This document shows, piece after piece, positions 2,306 through 39,160 of a stretch of 40,850 nucleotides of DNA; the first letter of the stretch is position 1; every line of letters begins with the position of its first letter. Position numbers and translations under genes: made by a program. Source of the stretch: a virus; the IMG/VR virus record IMGVR_UViG_3300048918_000334, positions 1 to 40,850 of that record; one strand, written 5' to 3'. Below the pieces are notes generated by a model. The model was not told where the DNA came from and did not search any database. It saw only the letters and a program-made list of their open reading frames with translations.

Positions 2306-4018
2306 ATGGACTGGTCGACAGCATGTCCCGATTGGGCTGAGCGCCTCGTCGCGCGCCGCTCGATCATCCCGAAGCCGCTCTTCGCCGAAGAGGCGGCCAA
2401 GGCGCTAGCGGTCTTCAAGCGCCTGCGTATCGTCGACGCGGCCGGGTCGCCGACCTTCGGGGAGGCCTGCGAACCCTGGGTCTTCGAATTCGTCGCGGCG
2501 ATCTTCGGGGCCTACGACGCCGCCGCTGGCCGCCGTCTGATCCGCGAATTCTTCCTGCTGATCAGCAAGAAGAACTCGAAATCGACCATCGCCGCCGGGA
2601 TCATGGTCACGGCGCTTGTGCGCAACTGGCGCAAGTCCGCCGAGCTGCTGCTGCTCGCGCCGACCCTTGAGGTCGCCAACAACGCCTTCGCGCCAGCCCG
2701 CGACATGATCTTGGCCGATCCCGAACTGCGAGATCTGCTCTACATCCAGGAGCATCTGCGCCAGATCACCCATCGGCTGACCAAGGCGGTCCTCAAGGTC
2801 GTCTCGGCCGACAACGACGTCGTCAGCGGCAAGAAGGCCGCCTTCGTTTTGGTCGACGAACTCTGGGTGTTCGGCAAGAAGCCGAAGGCCGACGCGATGC
2901 TGCGCGAGGTGACCGGCGGACTTGTATCGCGGCCCGAGGGCTTCGTGATCTTCCTCTCGACGCAGTCCGACGACGGGCCAGCCGGCGTATTCAGGGCGAA
3001 ACTCGACTACTTCCGCTCGGTCCGCGACGGGCGGATCGTCGATCCCAAGAGCCTGCCTATAATCTTCGAGTTCCCCGAGGCCATGGTGGCGGCCGAGGCC
3101 TACCTCGACCCGGCGAATTTCTACCTCACCAACCCCAACCTGGGCCGGTCAGTCGACGCCGAGTGGCTGCTCGACGAGCTGACCAAGGTGCTGAATGCCC
3201 GCGGCGGCGAGAAGCAGGCCTTCCTCGCCAAGCACCTGAACGTCGAAATCGGCCTGGGTCTGCACGCCGACCGCTGGCGCGGCGCCGACTACTGGCTGAC
3301 CGCGACCGATGCGAAGATCACCATCGCGGACCTGAAACGCCGCTGCGAGGTCTGCGTCGTCGGTATCGACGGCGGCGGCTTGGATGACTTGCTGGGTCTG
3401 ACCGTGATGGGCCGCGAACGCGGTTCGCGGCGCTGGCTTTCGTGGTCCAAGGCCTGGGTTCAGAGCGACGTTCTACGGCTGCGACCGGAGATCGCGCCTG
3501 TGCTTCGCGACTTCGAGGCCGACGGTGACTTGGTCATCTTCGATCTGGCACCGGCCGAGGACGGCGGCGTCCCGCAGGTGCGAGATTTTTCCGAGGTCGC
3601 CGACATCTGCGAGGATCTCAACGAGGCGGGTTTGCTGCCGGAGGCTGGCGCGATCGGGCTCGACGCGGCGGGCGTCGCGACCCTGGTCGATGCTCTGGTC
3701 GAGCGTGGCCTCACCAGCGAGCAGCTCGCCAGCGTGCCTCAGGGCTACAAGCTGCAGGGCGCGATCCTGGCCGGCGAGCGGAAGCTCAAGGACCGCACCT
3801 GGCGGCCTGCCTCGCAGCGCCTCATGGCCTGGTGCGTCGGCAACGCGAAAACCGAGATGAAGGGGTCCGCCATGCTGATCACCAAGCAGGTTGCTGGCAA
3901 GGCGAAGATCGACCCCTTGATGGCCGCGTTCGACGCGATCGAGCTGATGGCCCGCAATCCGGAGGCCAACGGCGTTGACCTCACCAGCTTCCTGAAGTCG
4001 GCGGCGATGTTCGCATGA
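2306..4018 (+). CDS. terL: Terminase large subunit
   Basis: The protein is 570 residues, the usual size for HK97-type large terminases. The ATPase has a variant Walker A, SKKNSKS at residues 87-93, and Walker B VLVDE at 181-185, followed by a coupling-like segment (FLSTQSDD). The C-terminal nuclease half shows the acidic strand [11 protein letters not shown] and a further acidic strand VIFDLAP. It cuts concatemers and pumps DNA into the prohead. The portal gene start overlaps its stop (ATGA). One distributed palindrome (3412-3430) lies inside, coding E-R-G-S-R. Confidence 0.95.
3412..3430. promoter_or_regulatory. Distributed 19-bp palindrome, site 2
   Basis: CCGCGAACGCGGTTCGCGG, inside terL, read in the frame E-R-G-S-R. 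Confidence 0.75.
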
Positions 4019-12135: not shown

Positions 12136-14970
12136 ATGCCCGCGACAGACCAAGAGGCTTTGCTGCTGCAATTCGGGGTTCAGCTCCGAGACCTGCAGAA
12201 GCAAATGAACAGTGCGGTCGGCGTCGTTTCTGATGGCGGCGCCAAGATGGTGCTGAAGACAAAGGAGGCGATGGCCGAGATCGAGAAGACTTATGGCACG
12301 GTCGACGCCAAGGGCTTCCGAGACATGCTCGCCCAGACCGCGGCGACGCAGGACAAGCTCACGGCCGCCCAAGCGGCTGGCAACACGGCCGAGGCCAAGG
12401 CCCTGCGGGAGCAGCTCGTCCTGCAGCAGGCCGTTCAAAAGGCCGCCACGCTGCAGATCGAGACGCAGTTAGCGATCGCCAAGGCGGCAGGATCGAGGGG
12501 GCAGGTCGCCCAACTTACCGAAGCGCTGGCGCTGCAGGGTCAGCTCAACAAGTTGCAAGGCGTGGGCCTCGTCGGAACGAAGGCCCTCGTCCAAGCCGAG
12601 GCCGCCGTTAACGGGCTTGCCGCCGCCGAAAAGGCCGCTGAAGGCGCCAGCGCCGGCCGAGCGCTGAACAACGTTTTTGACCGTTCGCGCCTGGCGGTGA
12701 TCGAGGAAGGGACCGCCAAGGTTCCGATCTTCGGGAGCGCCGTCGAGGCGTTGGGCGTCGCCGGCTTCGCGGCCGCCGCCGGTCTGGTGGCGTTGGGGAT
12801 CGGCGCCGAGCAGGCCCACAAGGCGATGGAGTGGGCCGACACTCTGCAGAAGACCGCCGATGGTCTGGGCGTCACGACGGACAGCCTGCAGAAGCTGGAT
12901 TATGCCGCTGTCGCGTCCTCGCTCGGCGTGGATAAGGGGCGAGAAACCCTCGCGAACTTCAACCAGTTGATCGGCAAGTTCGAGACGAACACCGCGGCCG
13001 GCCGGATCAACAAATGGGCCGCGGCGATCAAGCTTTCACGCGACGAGGTCAACGCCACCGTCGACCCGGTCGAGAAGCTTCAACTGGTGATGGAGAAGAT
13101 CGCCACCTTGCGCGACGCGCAGTCGCGCTCGGCGGCTGCCAAGGCCTTCGGTCTCGACGGCTTCCTGCCGCTGATCCAGCAAGGTGCGCCGGCGATCGAC
13201 GCCTTCGTCGCCAAGATGCGCGAAGCCCAAGCGGTCGGGGGCGTGATCGGCGCCGAAGACATCCGGCGGGCGGCCGAGATGAACGACAAGGTCGAGGCGC
13301 TGAGTTACCTGATTGGCCAGCACTTCCGTCAATCGTTCATCGACGCCGCGCCGGCCATCGAAAAGGTCGCCGAGTTCATTGAGCGCTGCGTCAAGGGTCT
13401 CGCCGATCTGATCGGTTCAATCCCGGATGCGATCCGCGGCCTGGAAAGCTTGATCTCCAAGATCCCGCATCTGCCGGATATCAAGATCGACGCCAGCGGC
13501 CTGGCTGAAACGACCGCGCGGGCGTTGGGCTTCGGTCCGGTGATCGACGTGGGCCGGGGCGCGGCCGCCGGATATCACGCGCTCGCGGAGCGCGGGCGAG
13601 CGGCCACTTATCAGGACCCCGACGATCCGGAGGTGATCCGCAACCAGATCCGCAGCCTGGCGCTCTCGCGGCAGGGCAAAGGCGAGCAACTCACCTTCGA
13701 CAAGCCGAAGAAGGCCAAGAAGGGTCCGACCGACGACACAGCTCAGAAGACCGATCAGGTCGCTGCGACGCTCGACGGGCTCGACCGTCAACTGCTGCAG
13801 GCGATGGCGGCCCTGCTCACCAATGTCGAGACCCGCGCGGTTGTCGAGAAGCAGATCGCCGACGCCGAGGCCGCGCAGCAGAAGGCGCGCCTGGACAAGC
13901 AGATTGCGGATATCGCCAAAGACAAGGGCTTACCGGACGCGACCAAGCGCCGGCTCACGGCCGAACTCGAACTCGGAAAGGTCGAGGTCGACAAGATCAC
14001 CGTCGCCAAGGACGAGTTGATCGATCGCCAAAAGGCGGATGCGCTTGCGCGGCAGGCCCTGAAGAGCAGTGAAACCGCGCTGCAGGGCCAAGACCAGATC
14101 CTCGCCTTGCAGGACAGCCTGGCGACCACGGCCAGCCAGCGCCGCGACATCGAACTGAAGCGGCTCGACCTCGCCGATCAGATGCAGGCACTCGAGCTGC
14201 AAGCGGTGATCGACAGCAGGCTGTCGTCGGACGTCGACAAGCAGATCGCCCAGGCCAAACTCGATCAGCTTCGGGCCACCAAAGGCCTTCGGCAGCAGCA
14301 GGTCCTTCGTAACACCGAAGGGCCTGGCGCGAGCTACCTCCGCAGTCTCGATCACGATACCTCGGCCGAGGGATTTGAGACGGCCGCCGTCAACGCCCTC
14401 AAGGATCTCAACGATCAGCTCGACCAAGCGATCGAGGGCACGGAGAGCCTGGGCGACGCTTTCAAGCACGTGGCGGCGACAATCCTGGCCAGCCTCATCG
14501 ATATCTCGATCAAGGAAAACATCATCACGCCACTCGCCCACCAGCTCTTCGGGGGTGGTGGCGGCGGCGGCGGCGGCGGGACGTCTGGTGGGTTCGGCGG
14601 CGGTGGGATCGGCAATTTCATCTCCAGCATCTTCGGCGGCGGCTCCGGATCGTCGCTCGGCTCGTCCCTCTCCGGATCGACCGACTTCGAGGCCAATCTC
14701 GCGAGCGGGGGCGTGCCCGGCTTCGCGGGCGGCGGGTCTTTCATCGTCGGCGGCATGAGCGGGATCGACCGCAACCTCGTCCAACTCCGCGCCTCGCGCG
14801 GCGAGCGCATCAGCATCGAGACGCCGGAGCAGCAGGCCGCCGCGAACGCGGTTCGCGGCGGAGGCCCCATGACGGTGATCCAACACATCATCACTCCAGA
14901 CGCCGACAGCTTCAGGAAGAGTGCGCGGCAGATCGCGAGCGCGACCAAGCGCGGGCTGGCGATCGTATGA
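12136..14970 (+). CDS. Tail tape measure protein
   Basis: The protein is 944 residues, long and mainly helical with coiled-coil stretches (about 15-175 and 530-720). A hydrophobic segment lies near residues 200-220 (AGFAAAAGLVALGIGAEQA). There is a tape-measure core (TLQKTADGLGVTTDSLQKL) and a Gly-rich run near 810-850, followed by a compact C-terminal domain with VGGMSGIDRNLVQLRASRGE. It sets tail length and is probably ejected with DNA. Palindrome 14840-14858 lies near the 3' end. It overlaps the next gene by four bases. Confidence 0.9.
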   Translation: MPATDQEALLLQFGVQLRDLQKQMNSAVGVVSDGGAKMVLKTKEAMAEIEKTYGTVDAKGFRDMLAQTAATQDKLTAAQAAGNTAEAKALREQLVLQQAVQKAATLQIETQLAIAKAAGSRGQVAQLTEALALQGQLNKLQGVGLVGTKALVQAEAAVNGLAAAEKAAEGASAGRALNNVFDRSRLAVIEEGTAKVPIFGSAVEALGVAGFAAAAGLVALGIGAEQAHKAMEWADTLQKTADGLGVTTDSLQKLDYAAVASSLGVDKGRETLANFNQLIGKFETNTAAGRINKWAAAIKLSRDEVNATVDPVEKLQLVMEKIATLRDAQSRSAAAKAFGLDGFLPLIQQGAPAIDAFVAKMREAQAVGGVIGAEDIRRAAEMNDKVEALSYLIGQHFRQSFIDAAPAIEKVAEFIERCVKGLADLIGSIPDAIRGLESLISKIPHLPDIKIDASGLAETTARALGFGPVIDVGRGAAAGYHALAERGRAATYQDPDDPEVIRNQIRSLALSRQGKGEQLTFDKPKKAKKGPTDDTAQKTDQVAATLDGLDRQLLQAMAALLTNVETRAVVEKQIADAEAAQQKARLDKQIADIAKDKGLPDATKRRLTAELELGKVEVDKITVAKDELIDRQKADALARQALKSSETALQGQDQILALQDSLATTASQRRDIELKRLDLADQMQALELQAVIDSRLSSDVDKQIAQAKLDQLRATKGLRQQQVLRNTEGPGASYLRSLDHDTSAEGFETAAVNALKDLNDQLDQAIEGTESLGDAFKHVAATILASLIDISIKENIITPLAHQLFGGGGGGGGGGTSGGFGGGGIGNFISSIFGGGSGSSLGSSLSGSTDFEANLASGGVPGFAGGGSFIVGGMSGIDRNLVQLRASRGERISIETPEQQAAANAVRGGGPMTVIQHIITPDADSFRKSARQIASATKRGLAIV
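14840..14858. promoter_or_regulatory. Distributed 19-bp palindrome, site 4
   Basis: CCGCGAACGCGGTTCGCGG, near the 3' end of the tape measure gene, read A-N-A-V-R. Confidence 0.75.
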
Positions 14971-28503: not shown

Positions 28504-28769
28504 GGCGCTTTCTCCTTGCTCGCCGCGTCGGCGGCGCGATCGAGCTTCGCGAGCCACTGCTCGGCGGCGATCCTCGCGCCCGGCCCGAGCTCGGCGAGCG
28601 GGCGGCCGAAGTGGGTCCTGGCCATGGCATCGGCGGCGTCGGTCCGCCAGAAGGCGGCCAGCACATAGGCCTTGACCAGCCACCCACCGAGGCCCGTCTG
28701 CTTTCGCAGATCCCGATAGGCCGCGTTCAACCTGTCGCGGTCCGCCCGCGGGATTGCCGGGGCGTTCAT
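28500..28769 (-). CDS. Small helical protein, unknown
   Basis: The protein is 89 residues from ATG 28769, overlapping the recombinase stop (ATGA). Helical and charged (MNAPAIPRADRDRLNAAYRD...), ends SKEKAP at the first of the repeated junctions. Directly coupled to the recombinase gene, so co-expressed with it. Confidence 0.6.
   Translation of the reverse strand: MNAPAIPRADRDRLNAAYRDLRKQTGLGGWLVKAYVLAAFWRTDAADAMARTHFGRPLAELGPGARIAAEQWLAKLDRAADAASKEKAP
28501..28516 (-). repeat. Repeated stop/start junction, copy 5 (diverged)
   Basis: Minus-strand AAGGAGAAAGCGCCATG, one base different in the CCCC part. Codes KEKAP at the end of 28500-28769 and starts 28270-28503. Confidence 0.6.
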
Positions 28770-30457
28770 GCCGCCTCCGCCACCAGCGGGAAGGCGACGA
28801 TCATCGGGGGGGCCGGTTTGTAGCGGCCCCCAGCTACCAACCGGCTCCCCCAGGTCGACGCCTCGGGGGAGCCGTCCTCGCCGGCCAGGAAGCGCGACAA
28901 GTCGCCGTGAAGGCGCAGGTCAAGGCCGCCTTTCCCGCGCGGGTTCGGGATGATCTCGATCTTAGTGACGAGGCCGCGGGCGACGTCGATCAGGCGACGG
29001 TTCGCCGGCACGGTCGAGGCCGCCTCGCCATAATCCGCGAGCGCCTGGCGCAGCTCGCCGACGATCTTCGCATAGGCGTCGGCGGCGCCCGGATGCAGGG
29101 CGATCGGCGGCTCGGCCGGAGCCTGGGCGAGCTGACGGTCGATCGCGTCGCGCTCCGCCTCGAATTCGAGCGCGCGGGCCTTTGCGTCTGCCGTGGCCGT
29201 GCCGTCGCAGATCGCGTCGACAACCCGGCCAATCCGCCGCGTGAGCTCGGCCCGGCGGCGTTCGAGGGGTTGGCGCTCGGCCAGCCGCTCGCGGTCGAGG
29301 CGCTGCCATGCGGCGTGATAAGCGCGCACATAGGCGGCGACGGCCGCCGGCGCGAGCAGCCGCGTCTGCAGGCCTTCGAGCGCGCGGGCCTCGACCTCGG
29401 CGCGTAGAACCTTTCTTGAGTTTTGGCAGAACGACGAACCGCGTTCGCGGTTGCCCGCGCAGACGAGCTTGCCGCCGCCGAAGGCCGTATAAGACGACCC
29501 GCAGGCGCCGCACTTGAGCAGGCCGGAGAAGAGGCCGGGCTTGCGGCGGTTGCCAAGGGCGCGCGCCGCGCGCTGCGGATCGGCTGCGCCCGCGCCGCGC
29601 GCCGCATTGGCGGCGTGGCGGGCTTGCACGCGGTCCCACAGGTCCTGCGGGACAATCCGAAGATGCTCGACGCTCGTCCGCCGCCATTCCGAGGGCTGAC
29701 GCATGACCGGCGTTCTCTTGCCCGTCCTGGGGTCCTTGCGGACCTCCATGCGGTTCCAGACCTTCGCGCCGGCATAGATCTCCGAATGCAGCACGCCGTT
29801 GCCGCGCGCCGCCGAGCCGGAGATCGAGGACCCGTTCCAGAAGCCGCCGCGCGGGCCTGGCGCGCGCTCGCGGTTCAGGAGGTCGGCAATCTCGCGTCCG
29901 CTCATGTCGTAGTCGGCGAACAGGGTGCAGATGCGCCGGACGATCTCTGCCTCTTGCTCGACGATCACCTGCTCGCCACCGGGCGCGGTGCGGTAGCCGA
30001 ACAGCCGTGAGCCTGTCGCGAGGCCTTTCTCGGCGTTCGAGCGCATGCCGCGGCTGGTTTTCTGGCCGAGGTCGATCAGGTACTGCTGCCCGATCAGGCC
30101 CTTAAAGGCCGTCCGCATGAGGTCGACCTCGTCGGTCCCCAGCGTCGCCAGCGTGACCCCGCAGGCGTTCAGGTCGTCACGGATCGTCGCCAAGTGGCCG
30201 AGGTTTCGCGCGAGACGGTCCTCGTCCTCGACGAGCAGGATATCGAACTCGCCGCGGCCGGCGGCGGCTATGGCGGCCAGGAGGCCCGGCCGGTTCGCCA
30301 TGGCGAAGCCGGAAATCCCTGCGTCGTCGAAGCCGGCGACGATCGCCCAGCCGCGCGCCTTCGCGCGCTCCGCGCAAACGGCGTGCTGATCGGGGATCGA
30401 GCGGGCGTTCTGCCGGTCCTCGTTCGAGAACCTGGCGTAGATGGCGCAACGGTTCAC
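28766..30457 (-). CDS. Large serine recombinase (phage integrase)
   Basis: The protein is 563 residues from GTG 30457. The N-terminal resolvase domain (1-150) has the catalytic serine in CAIYARFS (Ser11), the LVEDEDRLARN segment with the conserved arginine, and the usual LMRTAFKGLIGQ linker. A recombinase domain follows (about 160-290), then a zinc ribbon (LLKCGACGSSYTAFGGGKLVC...SSFC) and a coiled-coil insertion (about 370-440). Such enzymes integrate phage DNA between attP and attB without host factors, and need a directionality factor for excision. Palindrome 29432-29450 lies in the zinc-ribbon codons. Confidence 0.95.
   Translation of the reverse strand: MNRCAIYARFSNEDRQNARSIPDQHAVCAERAKARGWAIVAGFDDAGISGFAMANRPGLLAAIAAAGRGEFDILLVEDEDRLARNLGHLATIRDDLNACGVTLATLGTDEVDLMRTAFKGLIGQQYLIDLGQKTSRGMRSNAEKGLATGSRLFGYRTAPGGEQVIVEQEAEIVRRICTLFADYDMSGREIADLLNRERAPGPRGGFWNGSSISGSAARGNGVLHSEIYAGAKVWNRMEVRKDPRTGKRTPVMRQPSEWRRTSVEHLRIVPQDLWDRVQARHAANAARGAGAADPQRAARALGNRRKPGLFSGLLKCGACGSSYTAFGGGKLVCAGNRERGSSFCQNSRKVLRAEVEARALEGLQTRLLAPAAVAAYVRAYHAAWQRLDRERLAERQPLERRRAELTRRIGRVVDAICDGTATADAKARALEFEAERDAIDRQLAQAPAEPPIALHPGAADAYAKIVGELRQALADYGEAASTVPANRRLIDVARGLVTKIEIIPNPRGKGGLDLRLHGDLSRFLAGEDGSPEASTWGSRLVAGGRYKPAPPMIVAFPLVAEAA
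29432..29450. promoter_or_regulatory. Distributed 19-bp palindrome, site 9
   Basis: CGACGAACCGCGTTCGCGG, inside the recombinase gene (zinc-ribbon codons). Confidence 0.7.
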
Positions 30458-37149: not shown

Positions 37150-37531
37150 CACCGTCCGGCCCTTTCCGACCGCCGATCGCAGCGACACGATCATTGCGCG
37201 CGAGATCGAGCGGGACGTCGGTCGTCCCGACGCCAAGCCCGGCCACCTCTGCATCTTCTGCGTCGACGCTGAGGAAGATCTCTGGACGGTTTGGCTGGTC
37301 GACGGCGTCGATAGCCGCGGGATCGTCGCCACTGTCGCGAGCGAGGCCGGCGAGGCTCTGGCGCTGTCCGGCCTGCTAGCTCTCGACGTCTACTTCGCCA
37401 ACGACCCCGCGCCTTTCGAACCGGAGAAGCTGCGCGAGCTGATGCTCTGGAAGCAGCATCGCGGGCTTGCCGCAGTCCAGGCCGCGGGGCGCGCCGCCTG
37501 GCGGCCTGACTATCCGCGGGACGGTCGATGA
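37142..37531 (+). CDS. Early protein, unknown
   Basis: The protein is 129 residues from ATG 37142. Contains HLCIFCVDAEEDLWTVWLVD and a C-terminal helix region (LRELMLWKQHRGLAAVQAAG). No family recognised. Overlaps both neighbours (ATGA with the methyltransferase). Confidence 0.6.
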   Translation: MTDTVRPFPTADRSDTIIAREIERDVGRPDAKPGHLCIFCVDAEEDLWTVWLVDGVDSRGIVATVASEAGEALALSGLLALDVYFANDPAPFEPEKLRELMLWKQHRGLAAVQAAGRAAWRPDYPRDGR

Positions 37532-38658
37532 CCGGCACCCGCGACTACTACAACGAACTCGACCCGTTCGCGGCTCAGTGGATACGCGAGATGATCGGGC
37601 TCGGCGTCCTGCCGCCCGGCGAAGTCGATCAGCGCTCGATCAAGGACGTCACCCCTCATGACCTCGAAGGCTTCCGCCACTGCCATTTCTTCGCCGGCGT
37701 CGGCGGATGGGCCTACGCCGCCAAGCTCGCCGAATGGCCGGACGACCTGCGGCTCTGGACGGGCTCGTGCCCCTGCCAGCCGTTCTCCACGGCGGGCGAA
37801 GGCCGAGGTCATGACGATCCTCGGGACCTGTGGCCCCACTTCTTTCGCCTCATCCGCGCCCGAAGGCCCGCTCATGTCGTGGGAGAACAGGTTGCGGGAA
37901 AGGCTGGCCTCGGTTGGCTCGACCGAGTGCGCGCTGATCTGGCGCGTCAAGACTACGCCAGCCGGGGCGTCGATATCCCGGCTTGCGCCGTGGACGCCCC
38001 CAACATCCGCTCGCGCCTCTACTGGCGCGCCATGGCCGACGCCCAACGCCTCGGACTTGGAGGGCGGCCGGGTCAACCCTGCGGGGACGTCGCCGACGGG
38101 CCGCAGGCCCGACGGCCGCAAGGCGCAGATGGGCCTGCCGAACGCCATGGGGGGGGGCTCGCCGATAGGCCTATGGTCGACGCCGCGCGCGACAGATGGG
38201 GAGAAGGGCGGGCCGAACGGCGCGTTCGGGGCAGGGGGAACGCCTCTGCCGACGCAGCTCCATCGCGCGACCTGGCCGACGCCGGACGCGAGCGCAGGCG
38301 GACTGGTCTTCGGTCCGGATCGCGGCATGTCGACATGGGCGACGCCGCAGGCCAGGGACAGCAAGGGCTCTCGGTCGCCGAACGGTTCGAGCGGCTTGCG
38401 GGCTGGCGGCCAGATGCTGAACGAGCAGGTCGTCGAACCTGGCGATCTCATTGGGCCGACGCCGTCTGGATCATCTGCCACGACGGCAAGGCGCGGCGCG
38501 CCGAACCCAGCATTCCCCTGTTGGCTCATGGGGTACACGCCCGCGTTCCTAAGTGGCGCGGATTTGGCAACGCGATCAATCCGATCCTCGCGGCGGAAGT
38601 CTTAGGGGCGCTGCTCGACGACTTGGGCGCCGACCGCGCCGGAATGGCGGTCGAATGA
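37528..38658 (+). CDS. dcm: DNA cytosine C5 methyltransferase
   Basis: The protein is 376 residues. Motif I FFAGVGG (54-60), motif IV with catalytic Cys83 (GSCPCQPFSTAGEG), GEQV at 119-122 in place of ENV, an IRSRLYW segment (160-166) and motif X GFGNAINP near the end. The middle (about 170-310) is a variable target-recognition region rich in Arg/Gly/Ala with repeated A-D-A units. It methylates cytosine in a specific site, probably protecting phage DNA. No obvious restriction partner. Another frame over the same DNA also looks protein-like (next entry). Confidence 0.9.
   Translation: MTGTRDYYNELDPFAAQWIREMIGLGVLPPGEVDQRSIKDVTPHDLEGFRHCHFFAGVGGWAYAAKLAEWPDDLRLWTGSCPCQPFSTAGEGRGHDDPRDLWPHFFRLIRARRPAHVVGEQVAGKAGLGWLDRVRADLARQDYASRGVDIPACAVDAPNIRSRLYWRAMADAQRLGLGGRPGQPCGDVADGPQARRPQGADGPAERHGGGLADRPMVDAARDRWGEGRAERRVRGRGNASADAAPSRDLADAGRERRRTGLRSGSRHVDMGDAAGQGQQGLSVAERFERLAGWRPDAERAGRRTWRSHWADAVWIICHDGKARRAEPSIPLLAHGVHARVPKWRGFGNAINPILAAEVLGALLDDLGADRAGMAVE
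37658..38605 (+). CDS. Possible overprinted gene inside the methyltransferase (alternative frame)
   Basis: A 315-codon frame shifted +1 against the methyltransferase. In the part from about 37870 it reads LASVGSTECALIWRVKTTPAG, four W-x-T-P-x-A units near 38034, 38174, 38273 and 38336, and a C-terminal PAFPCWLMGYTPAF, followed by RSSRRKS. I know these patterns from phage methyltransferase-associated proteins, so the frame may be real or an evolutionary relic of frame switching. Possible starts are ATG 37658, 37811 and 37874, none with a strong ribosome site. A GC-rich shadow remains possible. Confidence 0.35.
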   Translation: MTSKASATAISSPASADGPTPPSSPNGRTTCGSGRARAPASRSPRRAKAEVMTILGTCGPTSFASSAPEGPLMSWENRLRERLASVGSTECALIWRVKTTPAGASISRLAPWTPPTSARASTGAPWPTPNASDLEGGRVNPAGTSPTGRRPDGRKAQMGLPNAMGGGSPIGLWSTPRATDGEKGGPNGAFGAGGTPLPTQLHRATWPTPDASAGGLVFGPDRGMSTWATPQARDSKGSRSPNGSSGLRAGGQMLNEQVVEPGDLIGPTPSGSSATTARRGAPNPAFPCWLMGYTPAFLSGADLATRSIRSSRRKS

Positions 38659-38846
38659 GCGCGCGACACGCCTTCGGGACGCGGATCGCCGAGTTCGCGG
38701 ACGGCTCACTGCAGGTCGTCGCCTACTGCGCGCGCTGCACGCTGATCGTGCCGGTCGGCGCCCATTTCCTGCAGCCCTGCGTCGAGACGCCGTCCTTGTC
38801 GGTCGCCGCAAGCTGGCCGACGCCCAGGCCGGAGGATCGGCCGTGA
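38655..38846 (+). CDS. Small early protein with C-x2-C
   Basis: The protein is 63 residues from ATG 38655, overlapping the methyltransferase stop (ATGA) and the next start (GTGA). Contains VVAYCARCTLIVPVGAHFLQ. One cysteine pair; function unknown. Confidence 0.55.
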   Translation: MSARHAFGTRIAEFADGSLQVVAYCARCTLIVPVGAHFLQPCVETPSLSVAASWPTPRPEDRP

Positions 38847-39160
38847 GCCCGCCGATCAGCGAGGCCAACCGCGAACACTATCCGGCGGACTGGCCGGAGA
38901 TCAGCTTCAATGCGCGGCGGCGCGCGGAGTGGCGGTGCGAGGGCTCGCCCTCCTACCCGAGCTGTCGGGCCGTCCAGGGCTCACCGCATCCGGTCACCGG
39001 CTCGATCGTCGTCCTGACGGTCGCGCACCTCGACCACACGCCCGAGAACGTCGCGCCGGCGAACCTCAAGGCGTGGTGTCAGCGCTGCCACCTCACCTAC
39101 GACGCCGCGCATCACGCGCAGAACGCCGCGGCCACGCGCGCGGCGAGGGTCGCGTCATGA
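38843..39160 (+). CDS. HNH-type endonuclease, early
   Basis: The protein is 105 residues from GTG 38843. RRRAEWRCEG...SCRA provides the first cysteine pair; VVLTVAHLDHTPENVAPANL has the His-Asn part; LKAWCQRCHLTYDAAHH completes the zinc/HNH fold. Lies two genes after the methyltransferase. Could be a free nuclease or part of a modification-linked defence; not established. Confidence 0.75.
   Translation: MSPPISEANREHYPADWPEISFNARRRAEWRCEGSPSYPSCRAVQGSPHPVTGSIVVLTVAHLDHTPENVAPANLKAWCQRCHLTYDAAHHAQNAAATRAARVAS

Follow-up and report, generated by a model that had tools for sequence, protein, structure and literature searches.

Does the long open frame that lies out of register over a phage methyltransferase gene encode a second protein, and if so, what might that protein do? 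Long genes with dual coding are regarded as uncommon in bacteria and DNA phages, and annotation rules count against them. We examined such a case in the window, that is, the whole 40,850-nucleotide stretch of viral DNA that was analysed. Its genes for a terminase large subunit (2306-4018, + strand), a tape measure protein (12136-14970, +) and an integrase (28766-30457, −) identify it as a tailed, probably temperate phage. The initial annotation had described a full C5 methyltransferase with motifs I, IV, VIII-like and X in one frame (frame 1) and an open +1 frame (frame 2) over the same DNA, and had proposed either dual coding or a change of frame during evolution.

The features of frame 1 are as follows.

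37528-38658, + strand: frame-1 gene, C5-cytosine methyltransferase catalytic chain (motifs I, IV, VI, VIII and X), 376 aa, from PF00145, phrog_363, motifs and structural model
37690-37704, + strand: motif I, FAGVG, from motif positions
37771-37782, + strand: motif IV, PCQP, with the catalytic cysteine, from motif positions
37885-37893, + strand: motif VI, EQV, from motif positions
38002-38016, + strand: motif VIII, NIRSR, from motif positions
38080-38364, + strand: residues 185-279, a predicted disordered, nearly unconstrained linker, from pLDDT and a synonymous share near that of the control frame
38566-38577, + strand: motif X, GNAI, the same DNA reading ATRS in frame 2, from motif positions

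Frame 1 matched PF00145 in Pfam (E = 4.9e-9; 36.5 bits against a curated cut-off of 22) and phrog_363 in PHROGs (E = 1.4e-65). Its AlphaFold2 model, for which M.HhaI was a structural match, was well folded to about residue 175, disordered over residues 185-279 (pLDDT mostly 33-45) and partly recovered around motif X. Together with the motifs, these matches bear out the identification as a C5 methyltransferase, whose frame-1 chain has no motif IX. The same holds across the family. Among the 411 loci that pass the overlap filter (median overlap 299 codons, 43-76% GC, some of them copies of the same contig), the family motif count placed motifs I, IV, VI, VIII and X in frame 1 of 386-408, with PCQ in 397 and GN in 399, and a pattern count found a motif-IX-like sequence in frame 1 of just 6. 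The lack of motif IX, combined with the disorder of residues 185-279, indicates a catalytic chain rather than a complete single-chain enzyme.

In the window's subgroup, a motif-II-like segment (NExDPxAAxWLR) precedes motif I, at 37528-37680 in the window and in relatives with YYNExDPxAAxWLR, and the usual motif II-III stretch between motifs I and IV is absent, as if circularly permuted. The best profile alignment fell on the segment expected from such a permutation, but at low probability.

Frame 2 contributes a different set of features.

37642-37646, + strand: AAGGA, weakly Shine-Dalgarno-like, 11 nt ahead of the frame-2 ATG, from the sequence and the start-site survey; commoner in relatives
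37658-38605, + strand: frame-2 gene (+1), 315 aa, with WPTP units and a motif-IX-like end, from phrog_1008 and family conservation beyond the frame-1 imprint
37931-37993, + strand: predicted hairpin TECALIW...SISRLA (strands 92-99 and 105-112), the most confident part of the AlphaFold2 model
38033-38347, + strand: recognition-like region with four W-x-T-P units (38033, 38174, 38273 and 38336), from motif positions and a profile match to the mycobacteriophage in-frame region
38501-38548, + strand: motif-IX-like PNPAFPCWLMGYTPAF region, from its pattern and the mycobacteriophage profile bridge

Every element first reported for this frame is present in its 315 open codons, namely STECALIW, TTPAG, four W-x-T-P units and PCWLMGY, the last within PAFPCWLMGYT at 38507. 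The double reading of the repeat TGGCCGACGCC, as ADA in frame 1 and WPTP in frame 2, is directly visible in the sequence. Frame 2 matched phrog_1008 in PHROGs (E = 1.2e-20), a family labelled DNA methyltransferase. Searches with the two translations thus led to separate phage families rather than to frame-1 matches only, and both kinds of sequence do occur in annotated phage methyltransferase families (phrog_363 for frame 1, phrog_1008 for frame 2).

Beyond these families, frame 2 had no convincing relative in Pfam, NCBIfam or PDB, and its comparison with Pfam and NCBIfam gave no endonuclease match and no HNH family. Its AlphaFold2 model was poor (mean pLDDT 59), with a confident hairpin at residues 92-112 and a fairly confident segment at residues 281-300, and a fold search with this model returned no significant structural relative. 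Over the 411 loci, the motif-IX-like pattern NPxFxxWLMGYP occurs in frame 2 of 364, and the catalytic PCQ is absent from frame 2 in nearly all. The motifs are divided between the frames, with I, IV, VI, VIII and X in frame 1 and the IX-like motif in frame 2. Both phrog_1008 and phrog_31772, the frame-2 families, carry the name DNA methyltransferase; since frame 2 is without PCQ nearly everywhere, they probably owe this name to the overlapping gene.

Taken alone, the window shows no excess over chance. The region has a GC content of ~70%, and synonymous shuffling, in which codons were permuted among positions with the same amino acid, left the +1 frame open in 21% of 20,000 trials. An antisense ORF (37510-38538, − strand, 342 aa) is longer than frame 2 and stayed open in every shuffle, indicating that it follows from the frame-1 amino acids and base composition. 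Open-frame length was therefore rejected as evidence within the window, and BLAST matches to frame 2 alone were judged insufficient because shuffled sequences still scored ~80 bits. Such values (P = 0.21 for the window) are what would be seen if frame 2 were a passive shadow of frame-1 conservation and high GC, made into a family by gene callers. The significance of frame 2 accordingly comes from its homologues.

At the family level, an unbiased stop test was performed on 79 loci fetched through the methyltransferase alignment only (median 273 codons). The +1 frame was stop-free in 73 of them against 6.1 expected, while the other four frames were stop-free in 0, 7, 0 and 0 loci against expectations of 0, 7.0, 0.15 and 0.43; the six exceptions still hold a long frame-2 ORF. 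A frame-2 profile averaged 216-240 bits on real sequences versus 72-82 on synonymous shuffles, and exceeded all 50 shuffles in each of the 218 loci left out of profile building, a comparison in which the absence of stops is partly built in by overlap cutting, a bias from which the 79-locus test is free. Over motifs IV-VIII, frame 2 scored above all shuffles in 239 of 241 loci. In the reverse shuffle, with frame 2 held fixed, frame 1 likewise scored above the shuffled sequences.

Substitution patterns were compared in 174 independent pairs, chosen for the DNA words they share rather than from a tree, which makes the values given here relative measures and not dN/dS estimates. The synonymous share of changed codons in frame 1, frame 2 and the unused +2 frame was.52,.21 and.10 over motifs IV-VIII,.14,.23 and.08 in the middle, and.33,.31 and.11 at the end; when the middle was aligned by frame 2, the shares became.06,.33 and.10. 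These regional differences indicate that frame 1 dominates the catalytic part and frame 2 the middle, with both held at the end. Position 1 of frame 1, which is the wobble base of frame 2, changes most often in the middle region, and upstream of frame 2 the usual pattern is seen, position 3 being fastest.

Dual coding in this family is real: both frames are conserved and selected beyond each other's imprint, family-wide. The proposal of dual coding is thus upheld by the stop, shuffle and substitution tests, and homologues do not freely break frame 2, whose conservation exceeds the frame-1 imprint. For the family, the same three tests exclude a passive shadow, the dual-frame signal is present at 43-48% GC as well, and the middle region varies most at the frame-2 wobble position, leaving that explanation next to no probability. 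A nucleotide-level origin of the conservation, through RNA structure, DNA sites or translational coupling instead of a second protein, would accommodate the Shine-Dalgarno-like sites inside the gene; it is nevertheless very improbable, given that the +1 conservation operates at the amino-acid level over ~300 codons and that the synonymous excess is found there and not in the +2 control.

Separate initiation of frame 2 is supported by sequence signals around its start, namely a conserved ATG, Shine-Dalgarno-like sites above the control level and an excess of AGG. In 100 of the 153 loci surveyed for start sites, an ATG stands 38 nt ahead of the motif-I codon; in the window, the frame-2 ATG is at −26. 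Shine-Dalgarno-like sites accompany the conserved frame-2 ATG in 65 loci, compared with 15% for internal ATGs, and AGG is used in excess at an upstream arginine codon (27% versus 7%).

The overlap is widespread. Of 244 loci, 242 have their frame-2 match placed over the methyltransferase at +1, and all of a further 160 loci have frame 2 at +1, comprising 80 from a divergent viral subgroup and 80 from bacterial genomes (Proteobacteria, Verrucomicrobia, Planctomycetes, Clostridia, Cyanobacteria, Bacteroidetes and others). Among the best 80 matches of each list in the viral and genome scans, no frame-2 gene stood on its own. Both frames are already annotated in Escherichia phage K1ind2, Xanthomonas phage PhiXhv-28 and Paenibacillus phage Bloom; frame 1 alone is annotated in the intact E. 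coli RefSeq loci examined.

The identity of frame 2 became clearer through mycobacteriophage relatives. Methyltransferases of the WillSterrel type carry motifs I-VIII, LLPTP repeats, LNPAFPEWMMGWPTGWV and GNGVVPQQ in one chain and one frame. The C-terminal half of the frame-2 profile aligned to their in-frame WPTP/IX region (hhalign probability 96.9, E = 1.4e-10), and frame 1 aligned to their catalytic part (E = 6.5e-29). In C5 enzymes, motif IX is the segment just before motif X, and the L-x-P...L-M-G-Y-P spacing in frame 2 is one that we take to agree with motif IX. On the basis of its position before motif X, this spacing and the mycobacteriophage profile alignment, a recognition-like region and motif IX are the most likely content of frame 2. 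One C-terminus with this spacing also matched the end of PF00145 weakly (E = 0.08).

Architectures differ among these genes. The WPTP/IX module lies at +1 in the large family and in frame in most mycobacteriophages found; in the mycobacteriophage loci L272 and L276 it is at +1, and motif X then follows in the same +1 ORF. Switching of frame during evolution, the second possibility raised at the outset, is supported by this in-frame arrangement and by differences between close relatives. As a separate observation, the frame of LLPTP and motif IX differs between the closely related mycobacteriophage genes L272, L275, L276 and L279 on the one hand and L259 and L260 on the other, and the number of LLPTP units varies, which suggests recent frame switches by indel or recombination. 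In single-chain mycobacteriophage genes, the part corresponding to the N-terminus of frame 2 scored only a little higher than the shuffles or fell within their range; selection on this part was therefore rejected, as the signal is possibly a shadow.

Motif complementarity, the disorder in frame 1, the in-frame mycobacteriophage module and the precedent of M.EcoHK31I together favour a split C5-cytosine methyltransferase with both chains encoded in superimposed frames, a reading that we consider probable. Frame 1 would yield the catalytic chain with motifs I-VIII and X, and its disordered linker would lie where the ribosome passes through the recognition region of the other chain. Frame 2 would yield a smaller chain with the WPTP region and motif IX, translated from its own ATG inside the first gene. 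The two chains may combine to form a single enzyme with a specific methylation site in phage DNA, probably as a means of evading host restriction. Separate translation of frame 2, chain assembly, DNA recognition by the WPTP region and this biological role are what we infer from the combined evidence. In a wider picture, towards which we lean, catalytic and DNA-recognition chains are superimposed over ~300 codons in a large family, use of the DNA alternates between them, and the recognition module has switched frame.

Two other readings accept the selected second frame. In the first, frame 2 does encode a protein, but one whose function has nothing to do with methylation (an anti-host or DNA-binding protein, for instance) and which is overprinted on the methyltransferase. 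Its conservation over motifs IV-VIII as well (the 239 loci above), more than recognition and motif IX need, and its lack of a known domain would fit such a protein. We nevertheless consider this unlikely, as the C-terminal half of frame 2 matches an in-frame region of mycobacteriophage methyltransferases and frame 2 was never seen apart from the methyltransferase among the loci fetched (the best 80 per list). In the second, programmed ribosomal frameshifting joins motifs I-VIII of frame 1 to the WPTP/IX region of frame 2 in one chain, consistent with the change of selected frame along the gene and with the fused chain of mycobacteriophages. This mechanism has only a small chance of being correct: motif X is back in frame 1 after frame 2, so that two shifts would be required, and conservation of frame 2 extends upstream of any such shift and includes its ATG. 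The split-enzyme reading remains preferred.

Known systems offer partial parallels. In M.EcoHK31I, the gene for the small chain lies inside the gene for the large chain in another frame. Its large subunit holds motifs I-VIII and X and its small subunit motif IX (PMC3404938, citing Lee et al. 1995), which, compared by described motifs alone, resembles frame 1 in having I-VIII and X without IX. The predicted TRD of M.EcoHK31I was placed in the large subunit (PMC3404938), whereas in the present case disorder is predicted for the middle of frame 1 and the WPTP region would belong to the small chain; moreover, this is a large family of phages and prophages. M.AquI is likewise a C5 enzyme in two chains split around the variable region, but its small chain contains IX and X (PMC3404938), whereas here X belongs to the large chain and most of both genes lies within the overlap; among mycobacteriophages, the loci L272, L275 and L276 seem more like M.AquI. 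The ShiLan domain, an HNH endonuclease concealed in an alternative frame of a phage methylase (PMC11855218), shares with frame 2 its position in another frame of a phage methylase gene; it is a mobile insertion with an HNH fold, whereas frame 2 overlaps the methyltransferase itself and matches no HNH family. WillSterrel gp071 has the same WPTP repeats and WMMGxP segment as frame 2, but there a single chain read in a single frame contains every motif. Both the division of a C5 enzyme over two chains and the hiding of a frame within a phage methylase (PMC11855218) are known. No paper on the family-wide overlap was found in the literature searched, a collection from which most subscription journals are absent; two DNA-cytosine methyltransferase genes are listed in a Paenibacillus larvae phage survey, in passages that do not mention an overlap.

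A dual-coding gene recurs in hundreds of phages and prophages across many phyla; many annotations list only one gene of the pair, and in phage records the second frame has taken its name from the first. Should the split-enzyme reading hold, frame-1 clones of orphan phage methyltransferases may lack activity or specificity, and methylomes predicted without regard to frame 2 may be wrong. The family also constitutes a natural experiment in a recognition module moving between reading frames.

Several individual loci deserve mention. In L248 (1363-2532), the methyltransferase of an E. coli Ec1117 prophage, RefSeq lists two partial pseudogenes, although frame 1 is open for 404 codons and frame 2 for 343; the pseudogene call may be wrong. 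L011 (375-1013) and L012 (1971-2609) have lost the frame-1 catalytic core and the N-terminal half of frame 2, and both C-terminal ends are open. A Klebsiella aerogenes plasmid match, considered as a relative beside a restriction enzyme, was rejected as a broken phage-like locus.

As for the neighbourhood of the gene pair in the window, an HNH endonuclease gene (38843-39160, + strand; phrog_1571, 5.4e-27) lies shortly downstream of the methyltransferase. It is the only candidate restriction-modification partner among the window neighbours checked, and the methyltransferase may be an orphan enzyme. A further TGGCCGACGCC copy at 38812-38830 (+ strand), downstream of the gene pair, reads WPTP in one frame and is possibly a leftover of a repeat unit.
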